Positions 36 to 5,082 of a stretch of 64,000 nt of DNA are shown piece by piece. How positions within the stretch are numbered: the first letter of the stretch is position 1; each line of letters opens with the position of its first letter. Below the pieces are notes generated by a model, which was not told the origin of the DNA, searched no databases, and was given only the letters and a program-made list of their open reading frames with translations. Both the position numbers and the translations under genes were made by a program. The stretch covers positions 124,001 to 188,000 of the forward strand of contig NZ_AOLN01000011.1 of the NCBI RefSeq assembly GCF_000337815.1. Reading direction: 5' to 3'. This stretch comes from Haloferax mucosum ATCC BAA-1512. GTDB taxonomy: Archaea > Halobacteriota > Halobacteria > Halobacteriales > Haloferacaceae.

Positions 36-233
36 ATGGCAAAAATTCCGCTCGAACTACTCGGTACCGAGGTCGATACGGACGACCCCGGTGAATCTGC
101 ACAGAACCTCGGCTTCGCGGCCCTTGGCGTCACCCTGACGATGGGTGTCGTTGGAGCGGGCGCGTATCTGTTCAACATGGCCCGTGAGAAAGCAGGCGTC
201 GATGACAGTGACGTGTCGATTCCGGGGGTCTAA
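36..233 (+). CDS. Small single-pass membrane protein of the virus-like cassette
   Basis: This 65-aa protein has an acidic N-terminal segment, one hydrophobic helix at about residues 27-46 and a short charged tail. GGAG lies about 6 nt before the ATG. It ends 3 nt before the next gene, so the two are probably translated from one message. In SH1-like viruses a small virion membrane protein is encoded just ahead of the capsid genes, and this one could play that part. That role is inferred from position and size; I recognise no family. The gene in front of it lies outside the window. Confidence 0.7.
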   Translation: MAKIPLELLGTEVDTDDPGESAQNLGFAALGVTLTMGVVGAGAYLFNMAREKAGVDDSDVSIPGV

Positions 234-236
234 AGC

Positions 237-758
237 ATGGAGACACTCCGATACAATCCCGGTCTCATCAACGTCGGTAACGCACGCCCTATCAACGCCG
301 ATGACCTCGATAAGGTGACTCTCAAAGCAGGCACCGAGGTCCCCATCTACTCGAAGAAGGTCAAGAACGACAAACTCCTGTTCTGGGGTGCTGGCGGGAA
401 AGACCGCGAATCCGCAGACACGAAGTTCTTCTTCTGCGACCTCGTCGCAACCGGGAACGGCACCGGCACCGCCGGCGACGCCGTCCGAGGCGAACTTATC
501 GCCGTCATCACTGATTCCGACCAAGAGCGAGTAAAGGCAGAGTTCACGCTTGGCGACTTGGGTCACCTCGCGGACGCACGAACGTCTGACAACCCGATGC
601 CGGTGATGTACGCGCTCGCACCCTACGCGAAGCCCGGCCGTCATATCGAACTGCGCATCCGCGCGTCGAGTTCGTCCGACGGCGTCGAAATCGACAACAC
701 GGAGGACCCCGGCAACGCATCGAGCGCCCGGCTCTGGTACTCCCAGGTCTCGAACTGA
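237..758 (+). CDS. Putative capsid-type beta protein (173 aa)
   Basis: The protein has no signal peptide or membrane helix. It has many alternating hydrophobic stretches separated by Gly/Asp/Asn turns, as in a beta-barrel. Its length is near that of the roughly 185-residue single jelly-roll capsid protein VP7 of SH1-group viruses, and it directly follows a small membrane protein, the arrangement I recall for VP12-VP7. I infer major capsid protein, small type. No diagnostic motif is visible, so structure prediction would be needed to settle it. The ATG is 3 nt after the previous stop. Confidence 0.6.
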   Translation: METLRYNPGLINVGNARPINADDLDKVTLKAGTEVPIYSKKVKNDKLLFWGAGGKDRESADTKFFFCDLVATGNGTGTAGDAVRGELIAVITDSDQERVKAEFTLGDLGHLADARTSDNPMPVMYALAPYAKPGRHIELRIRASSSSDGVEIDNTEDPGNASSARLWYSQVSN

Positions 759-769
759 GGTTCACTACC

Positions 770-1177
770 ATGTCTTCAATTTTCAACAACCGTGTGAGCC
801 GCCGGTTTTCAGGCGATGTGAGTCCTGACGCAACCGAACGTGAAACCTTCGAGGTGTCCAAAGACGCCACTATCGAGAAGGTCACAACCCGGTTCTACCG
901 GGGGCCACAGCTCGACCTATCCATCCGTCCGTTCGTCGAGAGCGAAGAAGGGAGGGAGAGAGATATTGTCGATGTCATCGGCCGGGACGGGGTCGTTGGG
1001 GATAACGACGTGTTTCCCTTCCACGTTTCCGAACCTGTCGAACGTGGCGATGTTGTCGGCATCGAGGTCACGAACGCCGATGGTACGAACACGTACGATT
1101 ACAACGTTGACCTCGAACTCGACCGCGCTGGTGGGGTCTCTCGACTCTTGCCGAGCATCCTCCAGAGGTGGCTCTAA
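770..1177 (+). CDS. Putative second capsid or capsomer protein (135 aa)
   Basis: The protein is predicted to be beta-rich, with strands at about residues 34-60, 80-92 and 98-118 and short charged turns, and no membrane segment. The C-terminus is basic and hydrophobic. It follows the 173-aa protein by 11 nt, and its TAA shares one base with the next ATG (TAATG). A second jelly-roll protein beside the first is the rule in SH1/SNJ1-like virions, which build heterodimeric capsomers, but this protein is shorter than the 232-residue VP4 of SH1 relatives. Function is inferred from context. Confidence 0.55.
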   Translation: MSSIFNNRVSRRFSGDVSPDATERETFEVSKDATIEKVTTRFYRGPQLDLSIRPFVESEEGRERDIVDVIGRDGVVGDNDVFPFHVSEPVERGDVVGIEVTNADGTNTYDYNVDLELDRAGGVSRLLPSILQRWL

Positions 1178-1524
1178 TGGGGATTAAGCAGTTCAGCCAG
1201 CCGGTCAGCGGGACTGGCGGCCAGCCTGTTGCGACGAACGCGGCCGGAACCATCGAGACGGACAACTACGCCCACGGCGGCGGGTTCGACTTCGACGGGA
1301 GCACGTACCCTTACACGCTGAATCCGGCAGAGACGATTCAGGAACTCGTTATCACCATCGCGGGAAATATCACCGCACGCATCACCACGACCGGCGGCGA
1401 CACCTTCGACCTCAAGTTGGCTGGCGGCACCGGCACGTTCGACAAGTGGGAAATCGACTCGGTAGAATTCCGTGACCCGAACGGCACGAACTCGCGTATC
1501 GCAGGAGGATGGGCCGGTGAGTAA
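1177..1524 (+). CDS. Virus-like structural protein, beta-rich, unknown (115 aa)
   Basis: The ATG at 1177 overlaps the preceding TAA; the in-frame GTG at 1168 lies inside the previous gene and is less likely. The protein is rich in Gly and Thr with short strand-like segments (ITTTGGDTFDL) and no membrane helix. It carries no motif that I recognise. It overlaps the next gene by 8 nt, so both belong to one translationally coupled cassette. A minor capsid or spike component is plausible from position only. Confidence 0.6.
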   Translation: MGIKQFSQPVSGTGGQPVATNAAGTIETDNYAHGGGFDFDGSTYPYTLNPAETIQELVITIAGNITARITTTGGDTFDLKLAGGTGTFDKWEIDSVEFRDPNGTNSRIAGGWAGE

Positions 1525-1936
1525 CTGGCTGTCAGGCGAGGCCGGAAATCAGTGGACTGCCGAAGGCTCTGTCTTGTGGTCAAACCGCAACGCCACCGAC
1601 GGTATCGACTTTCAGGGCACGTCCACGTTTAACCAAGAATGGGTAACTGTCGCCAACGGAGTCGGCTGGCAACTGCCGACCACCTTCGGAGCCGTTCGTG
1701 TGCTCGTCGCGCACATCGACGGCTCGCGCGGCATCGACGGCATCCGCATCACAGACATCAGCGGCACGCAACACACCGTGACGAAACAGGGGTCCCACAC
1801 CGGCCGTTTCGTCTCGAACACGTGGCACATCATCCCAATCACGGCCGAGTCCATCGATAAAGTTGACCTGAGAATGAACAGCGGCGACACGATACAGAAG
1901 AATCGACTCGTCGAACTGCAAGTGGGGCACATCTAA
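1517..1936 (+). CDS. Virus-like structural protein, beta-rich, unknown (139 aa)
   Basis: I chose the GTG at 1517 because GGAGG at 1504-1508 sits 8 nt upstream. The longer reading from 1472 would overlap the previous gene by 53 nt. The protein is rich in Trp, Thr and Gly with a repeated strand-turn pattern and no membrane segment. With the preceding 115-aa protein it forms a pair of similar size and character. Two co-encoded beta proteins could form a heteromeric spike, as VP3/VP6 do in SH1, but I see no sequence evidence for that specific role. Confidence 0.6.
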   Translation: MSNWLSGEAGNQWTAEGSVLWSNRNATDGIDFQGTSTFNQEWVTVANGVGWQLPTTFGAVRVLVAHIDGSRGIDGIRITDISGTQHTVTKQGSHTGRFVSNTWHIIPITAESIDKVDLRMNSGDTIQKNRLVELQVGHI

Positions 1937-1938
1937 CA

Positions 1939-2568
1939 ATGGTATACATAGCACCAGACGACAGTCCGAGCGCCGGGGAGACTATCGACCCAAGAGAGGA
2001 GCTTACACCCGGTGAACAACTCGCAAACAACATAGGGGGCGGCGGTGGTGATGATGACGACGACCACGTGCCGTTCTCCGACCGTGACGACGATGGTAGC
2101 TCAACCGGCGGATACGGGTCGATAGACCATCCCAACGCGCCCGACCCCGGCAACTCCGAAAGCGGGATGCCCGGCGGTGGTGACCCCGCCGGTGACGTGA
2201 TATCGCCTGACCCGAACGAGAACACTGACGGCGACGAAGTGACCATCAACCCCGATGGCTCCGCGAGTATCGACCCTGACCGCGTGAGCGGTGGCTATGA
2301 CAGTGTAGACGAAATCGCCGAGCAGGTCGAAGCGACCCTTGGCGGCGGGTCGAACTCGCCGCAGGTCGCCGAAATCACCGCTCTCGAAGAGCAAATCCGC
2401 AACCTCCGCGAGCGGTTGTCGGGGATGGGTCAGGTCACGTCCGGGTCGTCTCCCTCGTCGCCATCCTTGACACCATCCTCGTCGAGGACCGCCGCAGTCG
2501 TCGCGGTCGTCGTGGCCGCGGTCGTCGCGGCCGTCGCCGCCGTCTCTGGAGGTGACTCGTCGGCATGA
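1939..2568 (+). CDS. C-terminally anchored virus-like protein with coiled coil (209 aa)
   Basis: The first 120 residues are acidic, rich in Gly, Asp and Pro, and probably disordered. A short coiled coil follows at about 143-162, then a Ser/Thr linker at 167-183 and one Ala/Val membrane helix at about 184-203 ending in a short polar tail. The architecture is that of a tail-anchored virion protein that could link capsid and internal membrane. Its helix and linker resemble those of the next gene product. The start is 2 nt after the previous stop, and the end overlaps the next ATG (ATGA). Confidence 0.7.
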   Translation: MVYIAPDDSPSAGETIDPREELTPGEQLANNIGGGGGDDDDDHVPFSDRDDDGSSTGGYGSIDHPNAPDPGNSESGMPGGGDPAGDVISPDPNENTDGDEVTINPDGSASIDPDRVSGGYDSVDEIAEQVEATLGGGSNSPQVAEITALEEQIRNLRERLSGMGQVTSGSSPSSPSLTPSSSRTAAVVAVVVAAVVAAVAAVSGGDSSA

Positions 2569-2957
2569 GTATCCTGCGCATCTCCGGCGATGACGCCGAC
2601 GGAGCGGGCTACACAGTCGATGTTGACGGTGACGTCGCCGGGTACAGCGGCATGGGAGCAAACGACGGACTGACCGACGACGGTGCGGCCGGTTACATCG
2701 GGTCAGGCACTGACCGGTGGGCGGTCTCAGGTTCCATCACAGACATTGACATCCCGGACCACGCCCGCGCCTATCTCGACGGCAAGCGCATCGACTTGTC
2801 GCGGTTCCGGTCGTCTTCGTCTTCGTCGTCCTCGACCGGCGGCGGGTCGTCGCCGCCGTCGCCCGCACCAACCACCCAGTCAGGTGGCTTCGGTCTCGTC
2901 GCGGTCGTCGCGGCCGCCGCCGCGGTCGTCGCCGCAATCATCTTCGGAGGTGACTAA
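2565..2957 (+). CDS. C-terminally anchored virus-like protein (130 aa)
   Basis: An N-terminal domain of about 80 residues, rich in Gly and Asp, is followed by a run of eight Ser, a Gly/Pro/Ser linker (83-107) and one membrane helix at about 109-127 composed almost only of Ala, Val and Ile. It is translationally coupled to the preceding gene by an ATGA overlap and followed 1 nt later by the next ATG. The linker-plus-anchor module is shared with the 209-aa neighbour, which suggests duplication or domain swapping. Likely a virion membrane protein; the family is unknown to me. Confidence 0.68.
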   Translation: MSILRISGDDADGAGYTVDVDGDVAGYSGMGANDGLTDDGAAGYIGSGTDRWAVSGSITDIDIPDHARAYLDGKRIDLSRFRSSSSSSSSTGGGSSPPSPAPTTQSGGFGLVAVVAAAAAVVAAIIFGGD

Positions 2958-2958
2958 G

Positions 2959-3345
2959 ATGGGGGGCGTGCTCGACGGCATCGGCAACACCATCGACCAA
3001 ATCACCACAGACCAAGGCGACCCCGGATGGGGACCGGACGATACCGAAGCCGCCCTAGACGGCATCGCCGGCTCGACGGACGAGTGGGTGTCGCGCAACC
3101 CGGTCACCGACGGCGCTATCGACCTCGTTTGGTCCGGCCACGACGGCGACTCTATCGACGTGTTCGGTCCCGGACTGTGGGGGTCGGAAGGGTCGGTCGT
3201 GGACGTTGTCGTGGACCGCGAGGGCGAGACCCACGGCGGCGAGACGACGACGAAGCTCATGCTCTTCGGCGCGGTCGCGCTCGTCGTCCTCTATCTCGTC
3301 CGGCCGCTCCTGACGGTCCTCGCCGAGGTGGTCGGCGGTGAGTGA
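2959..3345 (+). CDS. C-terminally anchored virus-like protein (128 aa)
   Basis: The ATG at 2959 follows the previous TAA by one base and has GGAGG about 10 nt upstream; longer readings lie inside the previous gene. Residues 1-95 are acidic and hydrophilic. One membrane helix spans about 99-122, near the C-terminus. This is the third consecutive protein with the same topology, although its helix is richer in Leu and less repetitive. It overlaps the next gene by 8 nt. Probably a minor virion membrane protein. Confidence 0.65.
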   Translation: MGGVLDGIGNTIDQITTDQGDPGWGPDDTEAALDGIAGSTDEWVSRNPVTDGAIDLVWSGHDGDSIDVFGPGLWGSEGSVVDVVVDREGETHGGETTTKLMLFGAVALVVLYLVRPLLTVLAEVVGGE

Positions 3346-3541
3346 GCTGACGGACCTGCTCTTGCAGACGACTGACCCGGTCGTGGCGCTCATGGTGATG
3401 GGCCTAGGCGCGCTCATCCTGTGGGTTTACCGCGACCTGCACGGCGACCTCGTCGTCATGCGCGGACGTGTACGCCGCATCGAGGATTGGGCTATCGCCA
3501 CCGACGGTGGTGTCGTCGAGGAGGACGACGATGGACGGTAG
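3338..3541 (+). CDS. Small membrane protein, holin-like size (67 aa)
   Basis: The GTG start at 3338 overlaps the previous stop by 8 nt, and the TAG overlaps the next gene by 11 nt. One strong membrane helix lies at about residues 13-31, followed by a basic segment and a highly acidic C-terminus. Size and position late in a structural cassette would fit a minor virion membrane protein or a lysis/egress factor, but no family is recognisable. Confidence 0.6.
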   Translation: MSELTDLLLQTTDPVVALMVMGLGALILWVYRDLHGDLVVMRGRVRRIEDWAIATDGGVVEEDDDGR

Positions 3542-3668
3542 TGTCACGCTCAGTCCGTTGGAATTTCTCGCAGTTGCGGCGCTCCCGCTCTCGGCGATTT
3601 CGGGAGTGCTGAAGGCACAGATACAGCGCCATTTCGGACAGGAAAAAAGAACCGCCGAGTCTTCCTAG
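3531..3668 (+). CDS. Very small membrane protein closing the cassette (45 aa)
   Basis: The ATG at 3531 lies inside the 3' end of the preceding gene. The protein has one hydrophobic segment at about residues 9-27, then a basic, polar C-terminus. Its TAG stop overlaps the stop of the converging regulator gene, so the two operons have no spacer between them. The continued tight overlap and the membrane helix support a real gene; its function is unknown. Confidence 0.55.
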   Translation: MDGSVTLSPLEFLAVAALPLSAISGVLKAQIQRHFGQEKRTAESS

Positions 3669-4111
3669 TTGCTCGTCGCCTTCGCCTTCGTCTCTGTCTT
3701 CGCTGTCGCTACTTCTTCAGGTCGGTAGACGATGATGTCGCCCCACTTGGGAGCGATATACCCACGTTGTTCGAGTGGTTTCAGGATGCGGCGGCGAACG
3801 GCTTCTTTCGGGATGCCCGCACGCTCGGCAACCTTTGAGATAGCAGTGCCCACATCGAGGCGACGACCGCTCGGGTCGTACGCTTCGGCAGTCCGTCGGA
3901 GTGCGATGTAACCGTCTCGGAGTGCTTCGTCTTCCGGGAGGTTGTCGTCTTCAGGTTCGTCGCGCACGGTTCGGGCGACTTCTTCCATGTGCGCCCGCAG
4001 GTCGTCACTCATTGACCCATCGAGGGCGTTGGTGTAGTCCTTTTTCAGGTTCTCATCGACCCGAACAGTGACCGTCGCACTGCCGCTACGGTCCGACTGC
4101 ATCCGGCTCAT
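3665..4111 (-). CDS. RHH plus winged-helix DNA-binding regulator (148 aa)
   Basis: Residues 11-48 fit a ribbon-helix-helix domain: a strand with alternating hydrophobics (ATVTVRV) followed by two helices. Residues 85-130 fit a winged helix, with helices around 88-98 and 101-115 and a wing ending at IIVYRPEE. An acidic linker joins them. Such a protein would be a repressor or switch regulator for the element. It is the last gene of a leftward operon and overlaps its upstream neighbour by ATGA. Its stop codon overlaps the stop of the converging cassette. Domain assignment is by eye. Confidence 0.72.
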   Translation of the reverse strand: MSRMQSDRSGSATVTVRVDENLKKDYTNALDGSMSDDLRAHMEEVARTVRDEPEDDNLPEDEALRDGYIALRRTAEAYDPSGRRLDVGTAISKVAERAGIPKEAVRRRILKPLEQRGYIAPKWGDIIVYRPEEVATAKTETKAKATSN

Positions 4112-4299
4112 TGTCCACCTCCGTACTGCACTGGTTTACACCCGTAATACGCAGACGGGGCGGCGATAGGGAGTATGGCAGTACGCCCCCCCGTGGTTGT
4201 ACGAAGCGGTCCCTTCTCGCGGGGGCGTGCGCGCCCGCGATAGCGTGGTAGCTGTTCGACTGTCGTTGTCGGTACGTTAGAGTGGATAGAACGGGTCAT
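4108..4299 (-). CDS. Small basic protein of unknown function (63 aa)
   Basis: It overlaps both neighbours by 4 nt (ATGA at each end), which is the main reason to believe it. The sequence is rich in Arg, Thr and Pro, with no membrane helix and one Cys. I recognise no family. Given the operon it may be a small nucleic-acid-binding accessory factor of the element, but nothing in the sequence proves this. Confidence 0.45.
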   Translation of the reverse strand: MTRSIHSNVPTTTVEQLPRYRGRARPREKGPLRTTTGGRTAILPIAAPSAYYGCKPVQYGGGQ

Positions 4300-4733
4300 A
4301 GCTGGCCCTCCGGTCGGCCGAAGACATGGCCGTCGTGTCCGGTTGGTGGTGCTTCGATGTGTTCGATGCGCCCGCCGTCAGTGGCGACTGCACTGTCGGT
4401 ACCGGCTCGCACAGACGAGAGTGGCGGGATGGTGATTCGACGACCGTTGAGGTCGGAGAGACCGACAAAGGCGGCTTGTCGGACGGTACAGAGGTGCGCA
4501 CAAGGCCCGTCGTTGTACTCGAATCCCTTCCCATCGCAGTACCCGAGGAATCGGCCGTGGTCCTCAACCAGTTCGACGTGATGGGCGTCTGCGCCGTCTG
4601 GCAGAGTGACGATGTGAGTTTCCGGACCGGTTGACTCGATAAGCGCGCCAACAGGTGCGGCGCGTTGCCACGATGTCGTCTCGGCGTCGCGTTCGGCTTC
4701 GAAATCGAGTGAGGCGAGGTCGTCGGGTCTCAC
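4296..4733 (-). CDS. SWIM-like zinc-finger protein (145 aa)
   Basis: The central part has C66, C78, H80 and C82 in the setting GYCDGKGFEYNDGPCAHL, which resembles the SWIM zinc finger (CxCxnCxH) of nucleic-acid- or protein-binding proteins. The first pair of Cys is not canonical, so the match is partial. The N-terminus is acidic and the C-terminus lacks motifs. The start is a GTG whose first bases form the stop of the 34-aa zinc ribbon gene (GTGA overlap). Haloviruses and plasmids often encode such proteins. A recombination or regulatory accessory role is inference. Confidence 0.65.
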   Translation of the reverse strand: MRPDDLASLDFEAERDAETTSWQRAAPVGALIESTGPETHIVTLPDGADAHHVELVEDHGRFLGYCDGKGFEYNDGPCAHLCTVRQAAFVGLSDLNGRRITIPPLSSVRAGTDSAVATDGGRIEHIEAPPTGHDGHVFGRPEGQL

Positions 4734-4834: not shown

Positions 4835-5010
4835 CAGTCCAACCCCCCGAAATCACTCGATTCATCGACAGACAGCGATGTGCTGACTAACGGACCCTCG
4901 TCAATTCTCGATGGACGGGGTGTTTGTTCCGCCCTTTCAATTGCGAGATTTGTGTCTACGAGTGCTGTTGCTCTGGTTTGTGGAACCTTCGTAGACGAGT
5001 TAGAATTTGA
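4834..5010 (-). pseudogene. 3' part of an ORF cut at the tRNA-Ala junction
   Basis: The frame ending at TGA 4836-4834 is open for about 59 codons up to the tRNA gene. It stays open through the tRNA, meeting a stop just upstream of it, and has no ATG, GTG or TTG that could start it. The encoded tail is hydrophilic, rich in Ser, Thr and Asp (ending SSDFGGLD). Its stop overlaps the start of the zinc ribbon gene, as between true coupled genes. I read it as the end of a gene whose start lies at the other end of the integrated element. The sequence shows no recombinase Tyr motif. Confidence 0.5.
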
Positions 5011-5082
5011 TGGACTCGCGGGGATTTGAACCCCGGGCCTCTTCCTTGCGAAGGAAGCGATCTGCCACTGATCTACGAGCCC
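5011..5082 (-). tRNA. tRNA-Ala (anticodon CGC)
   Basis: The 72-nt cloverleaf is complete: acceptor GGGCTCG/CGAGTCC, D arm GATC/GATC, anticodon stem CTTCC/GGAAG with loop TTCGCAA (anticodon CGC, codon GCG), T arm CGGGG/CCCCG with loop TTCAAAT, and discriminator A. No CCA is encoded and there is no intron. The 3' end faces the virus-like element, so this gene is its presumed attachment site; integration left an intact tRNA. A TATA box lies about 30 nt upstream. Confidence 0.96.

Follow-up and report, generated by a model that had tools for sequence, protein, structure and literature searches.

Features of the Halopanivirales, the vertical single-jelly-roll viruses, include an FtsK/HerA-type packaging ATPase, two single-jelly-roll major capsid proteins (MCPs), small and large, a single-jelly-roll penton and an icosahedral virion lined by an internal membrane. 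The Simuloviridae (SNJ1, HJIV1 and NVIV1) have circular genomes of 16-19 kb, two jelly-roll MCPs and a VP9-type penton, and the Sphaerolipoviridae (SH1, HHIV-2 and HCIV-1) have linear genomes of 30 kb and the MCPs VP4 and VP7. The locus described here resembles both groups but differs in size, at 10,965 bp, in carrying no MCP pair and in having a penton-like protein of another type, which we call A2. The provirus ArcVen-P3 of Archaeoglobus veneficus likewise combines an FtsK-like ATPase with only one capsid-type gene (PMC4158269). Its capsid protein resembles VP16, a small MCP, whereas our candidate leans weakly to the large MCP, as judged from separate comparisons. From ArcVen-P3, Makarova et al. 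proposed a one-capsid-protein ancestor in 2014, reading it as a simpler state (PMC4158269); we found no later paper on the one-capsid-protein state of ArcVen-P3 in the literature searched.

A further system comes from the genus itself. Dyall-Smith, Pfeiffer and co-workers (2021) assembled Halfvol2, a circular genome of 12,275 bp, from an Hfx. volcanii virus stock; it is found in tRNA-Ala, encodes ten membrane proteins and was described as representing a novel group, probably with a lipid envelope, and the available text of that report names no capsid protein (PMC7911831). Compared by description rather than by sequence, our element probably belongs with the Halfvol2 group: shared are the genus, integration in tRNA-Ala (CGC in our case), a genome of similar size (12.3 kb and circular in Halfvol2, with siblings of up to 12.1 kb here), many membrane proteins and the lack of a match to known viruses.

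The window, the 64-kb stretch of DNA that was analysed, corresponds to C11:124001-188000 of a 3.37-Mb draft genome of Haloferax mucosum, and coordinates are those of the window unless prefixed C11 (Table 1). As the first-pass annotation reported, ten same-strand ORFs at 36-3668, each touching or overlapping the next, encode proteins of 65, 173, 135, 115, 139, 209, 130, 128, 67 and 45 aa, and their grouping also holds: a short membrane protein, then four that are soluble and five with a membrane helix. Hydropathy analysis places no membrane helix in the proteins of 173 (A1), 135 (A2), 115 (A3) and 139 aa and a single one in each of the remaining six; that of the 65-aa protein lies mid-protein. 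The tail anchors that had been assigned to four or five of these proteins are borne out for those of 209, 130 and 128 aa only, as the helix of the 67- and 45-aa proteins lies near the N-terminus. The order of the core genes is kept in 10 other haloarchaeal loci. Because homologous operons occur elsewhere and the dN/dS values of about 0.1-0.37 indicate purifying selection, the cassette is not a chance arrangement and its genes are real and selected. It makes up roughly one third of a larger element, whose divergent ATPase operon lies just left of the window. SH1 and HHIV-2 show the same divergent layout, with the ATPase operon on one strand and a membrane-protein gene and the capsid genes on the other; by position alone, without a sequence match, the 65-aa gene takes the place of VP12 in those viruses.

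Table 1. Features of the proviral element and its flanks (window coordinates unless prefixed C11).
Feature	Position	Strand	Remarks
Integrase, predicted, tyrosine type	C11:118114-119115	-	left flank
Second short tyrosine recombinase, 194 aa, catalytic domain only	C11:120962-121546 (L008:10962-11546)	-	inside element
P-loop ATPase, FtsK/HerA-type, packaging type	C11:122220-122837	-	left flank
149-aa protein, zinc-ribbon-like protein, 60-aa membrane protein	left of window	-	
65-aa membrane protein, first gene of virion operon	36..233	+	membrane helix; 7 other loci have homologues
A1, 173 aa, candidate for the sole MCP	237..758	+	11 loci without MCP pair; beta-rich model; profile partner
A2, 135 aa, modelled as a penton-like single jelly roll	770..1177	+	model; 6h82_b match; position of homologues
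A3, 115 aa, conserved soluble protein	1177..1524	+	9 of 11 family loci and L045/L046
139-aa variable soluble protein, candidate vertex/spike	1517..1936	+	suggested by variability
209-aa tail-anchored protein	1939..2568	+	C-terminal membrane helix; homologues in L043, L044, L020
130-aa tail-anchored protein	2565..2957	+	C-terminal membrane helix
128-aa tail-anchored protein	2959..3345	+	C-terminal membrane helix; cluster common to 8 other loci, including SNJ1-type provirus L047
67-aa protein	3338..3541	+	N-terminal membrane helix; homologues in L018, L023, L043-L046
45-aa protein	3531..3668	+	N-terminal membrane helix; weak coding score
148-aa ribbon-helix-helix/winged-helix-like regulator candidate	3665..4111	-	weak Pfam matches (RelB, HTH families)
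145-aa Cys/His motif protein beside attR	4296..4733	-	homologues in L019-L021, L025, L045-L047
attR core and tRNA-Ala (CGC), integration site, right element end	5010..5082	-	tRNA at 5011-5082; core repeat at C11:118045

The ends of the element were determined computationally. The att core ATGGACTCGCGGGG lies at C11:118045 and again at the 3' end of the tRNA-Ala gene (C11:129010, window 5010), and in four sister genomes (L071, L072, L073 and L077) the flank is joined to the tRNA with the insert absent, giving the empty site. Together the core repeats and empty sites define a provirus of 10,965 bp, from about -5954 to 5010 in the window, of which the cassette is the right part. The same tRNA carries elements of 10.8-12.1 kb in four other Haloferax genomes. 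A packaging-type ATPase and a predicted integrase, for which the first-pass annotation had pointed to the left flank, are both encoded there. The regulator candidate right of the cassette is 86% identical in L020 and has homologues in L045/L046. No Rep gene was recognised in the window element. The short second recombinase is kept in L020, L025, L047, L086 and L088. Just outside the element lies an extra att-like core (C11:117963, L008:7963), and C11:116537-116629 (L008:6537-6629) retains part of what was once a duplicate of the gene for the 67-aa membrane protein, at 80% identity; the two look like debris of an earlier insertion. CRISPR spacers were considered as the source of short self-matches in this genome and rejected, as the matches do not lie in spacer-repeat arrays.

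Relatives of A1 were found in 7 of 294 other genomes of the order in a first search, and a profile of A2 extended the set by two close loci in Haloferax and by three proviruses of greater distance. The resulting family comprises 11 loci with measured lengths of 10.8-12.1 kb, integrated and episomal, in Haloferax, Halobacterium, Halomarina and Natrinema; named relatives within the genus are Haloferax marisrubri, Hfx. elongans and Haloferax sp. Q22. Three members are stand-alone contigs and at least two are circular episomes. L022 (also L049) is the circular Halobacterium litoreum plasmid unnamed1 (NZ_CP089467.1; 11,599 bp), whose genes are annotated only as hypothetical; L018, of about 12.0 kb, has a 48-bp terminal overlap, and L024 measures 11,562 bp. 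Both L018 and L022 carry a gene homologous to that for the rolling-circle (HUH) RepA of SNJ1 (49% identity over 438 columns), a Simuloviridae feature that was not recognised in the window element. The NZ_CP089467.1 plasmid is an episomal form of this virus family, and in PLSDB it was the only match to the A2 query and to the A1 query from L022. One A2 profile match, in G242 (E 8.8e-4), was rejected as a false positive that sits among cellular genes. A conserved protein of 130-155 aa (phrog_2095), whose E-x-K motif is reminiscent of PD-(D/E)XK nucleases, occurs at L022:2808-3266, L020:7351-7803 and in 8 more loci, and was not found in the window element. Six further haloarchaeal proviruses (L085-L088, L045 and L046) carry an MCP pair of the SNJ1/SH1 type and their own ATPase type; they form a second group, for which no phage-collection record was noted.

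The suggestion of a divergent or new virus group fits the searches. The INPHARED phage collection held no match for A1, A2, A3 or the ATPase, and no relative was confirmed in IMG/VR with A1 of the window and of three further loci, an A1 alignment, an A3 homologue and the ATPase as queries; the novelty of the group as such was already reported for the probably related induced provirus Halfvol2 (PMC7911831).

An ATPase of the packaging type ties the element to icosahedral viruses. In hhalign comparisons its profile matched that of the P23-77 packaging ATPase at 97%, its SH1 counterpart at 95% and, more weakly, that of SNJ1 at 70%, placing it in the superfamily found in the Simuloviridae, and it has an HMM match to the HHIV-2 ATPase (E 3e-4). 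Two related ATPase types (97%) substitute for each other between elements.

The second link is A2. Its AlphaFold model is an eight-stranded barrel (pLDDT 85) whose PDB matches are generally jelly-roll and beta-sandwich domains, among them 6h82_b at TM-scores of 0.52/0.52. That chain is gene 22 of HHIV-2, whose product is the penton (PMC6414509). The jelly roll sought in the first-pass annotation among the soluble proteins, with HHIV-2 as the comparison, is therefore found in the model of at least one of them. Homologues of A2 in L045/L046 and L047 (98.5% and 97.8%, hhalign) follow two MCP genes and a small gene with a C-terminal membrane helix, the MCPs of L047 being of the SNJ1 type (99.9% and 100%). 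In L085-L088, four proviruses with an ATPase and MCP pair of the L045/L046 type, a VP9-type penton gene takes the place of A2, and A2 and VP9 never co-occur among the loci and genomes compared. As modelled, A2 is a penton-like single jelly roll, and its homologues occupy the penton position. PDB sequence searches with profiles of A1, A2 and A3 gave no match.

These data bear on whether the virion has an icosahedral shell at all. The many membrane proteins and the small circular genome would suit a pleomorphic, lipid-enveloped virus that consists of a membrane vesicle with the soluble beta proteins as its surface or matrix components. This is close to the 2021 reading of Halfvol2, which was taken to be lipid enveloped (PMC7911831), and the Pleolipoviridae too are small temperate haloarchaeal viruses at tRNA genes. 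We consider it unlikely, as the ATPase is of the packaging type and related to those of icosahedral viruses, A2 homologues occur in proviruses with a full MCP pair, and neither A1-A3 nor the ATPase has a relative in the phage collection. PHROG and phage records likewise gave no match for A1-A3 and no PHROG function for the membrane proteins, in searches that used the proteins of the element as queries.

For the shell itself, A1 is the candidate. A1 is present in 11 of 11 family loci, none of which has a small or large MCP by profile HMMs that detect both in 10 other genomes; conversely, seven proviruses and SNJ1, HJIV1 and NVIV1 have the pair and lack A1. The two single-jelly-roll MCPs of the Halopanivirales are thus missing from the family, and A1 directly precedes the penton gene, where relatives carry their MCPs. 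The A1 model is beta-rich (pLDDT 82, pTM 0.80). Its Foldseek matches in the PDB are weak, all with E above 0.001 and TM-scores below 0.5, although the top 50 include many viral jelly rolls, such as birnavirus VP2 and, weakly, P23-77 VP16 and VP17; matches to a viral structure library were weak and mixed. The modelled fold is probably, not firmly, a jelly roll. By sequence, A1 does not match any known MCP significantly, and its profile gave nothing useful against small MCPs, SH1 and P23-77 MCPs or VP9 pentons. When its profile was compared with 72 families, the large MCP of the L045-type proviruses came first with a score of 28; the runner-up reached 21, and the best shuffled score was 21.5 in controls with 120 shuffled targets and 60 shuffled queries. 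The match covers residues 13-54 (42 residues) at an hhalign probability of only 15%, a likeness that is suggestive rather than proof. Overall, A1 fairly probably substitutes for the usual small and large MCP pair as the sole major capsid protein.

A shell of two proteins, in which A1 and A2 (or A3) form hetero-capsomers like VP7/VP4 and another gene supplies the penton, would fit the adjacency and conservation of A1, A2 and A3 and the modelled jelly roll of A2. It appears improbable in view of L045/L046, where homologues of A2 and A3 stand beside a complete MCP pair, as does that of A2 in L047. Because A2 lies beside a complete pair, in the place of the VP9 penton of L085-L088, it is not the second MCP in L045-L047. 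The same co-occurrence led us to drop the reading of all four soluble proteins as capsid proteins. That claim of the first-pass annotation was wrong, and the best assignment is A1 as major capsid protein, A2 as penton, A3 as a conserved protein and the 139-aa protein as a variable vertex candidate. A3, found in nine of the 11 family loci and in L045/L046, accompanies A2 and has no PDB or Pfam match. For the 139-aa protein no homologue was found in other loci, even in close relatives, where its place is taken by genes of other lengths and sequences; because of this variability it is probably a receptor-binding vertex or spike protein.

The lack of a standard MCP in all 11 loci, together with a small genome that has its own ATPase and penton-like gene, might instead indicate a satellite or capsid parasite that borrows the shell of an SNJ1/SH1-type helper. 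This seems distinctly unlikely, since no member lacks A1, whose gene immediately precedes that of the penton, in the MCP place of relatives, and no helper virus is known in Haloferax. An integrative plasmid with a few captured virus genes and no virion is very improbable: plasmid forms do exist, one with a standard plasmid record, but the operon of ten virion-type genes is intact, selected and joined by a packaging-type ATPase, and the plasmid forms encode the RepA of SNJ1, a virus that is itself episomal (PMC12642351).

That the element is a temperate virus with a packaging ATPase and a penton-like protein is very likely. With moderate confidence, we read the region as the virion operon of a temperate dsDNA virus of about 11 kb in a Haloferax tRNA-Ala gene, with A1 as its sole major capsid protein and A2 as its penton. 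With A2 as the penton and A1 in place of the missing MCP pair, the element therefore appears to be a variant of the vertical single-jelly-roll viruses with only one major capsid protein. We infer an icosahedral virion with an inner membrane and an active provirus. In the proposed cycle, the tyrosine integrase would insert the virus into the tRNA-Ala gene, and excision and circularisation would be followed by expression of the two divergent operons, that of the ATPase and that of the virion proteins. The small and tail-anchored membrane proteins would form a vesicle of host lipid, which A1 would tile as the only major capsid protein; the A2 jelly roll would occupy the five-fold vertices and bear the variable spike protein. 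Packaging of the genome would be driven by the FtsK/HerA-type ATPase as a pump.

Already known were the novelty of the Halfvol2 group (PMC7911831) and the proposal of a one-capsid ancestor (PMC4158269). The present analysis adds an assignment of the capsid proteins, connects the element to SNJ1/SH1-type viruses by way of its ATPase and penton and the RepA of its relatives, and shows how large the family is and which hosts it has. On balance, and by a narrow preference, these loci probably represent a haloarchaeal family of temperate viruses with genomes of about 11 kb and a membrane-lined shell made of a single vertical jelly-roll MCP and a penton, the simplest form of an otherwise two-MCP lineage and one with culturable hosts. 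The 'unassigned' Halfvol2 group would thereby gain a likely place. Vertical single-jelly-roll viruses are regarded as close to where the double-jelly-roll viruses (PRD1, adenovirus and giant viruses) arose, and the intact genes in strains of the model genus Haloferax, together with the circular Halobacterium litoreum plasmid, make the one-capsid question testable.
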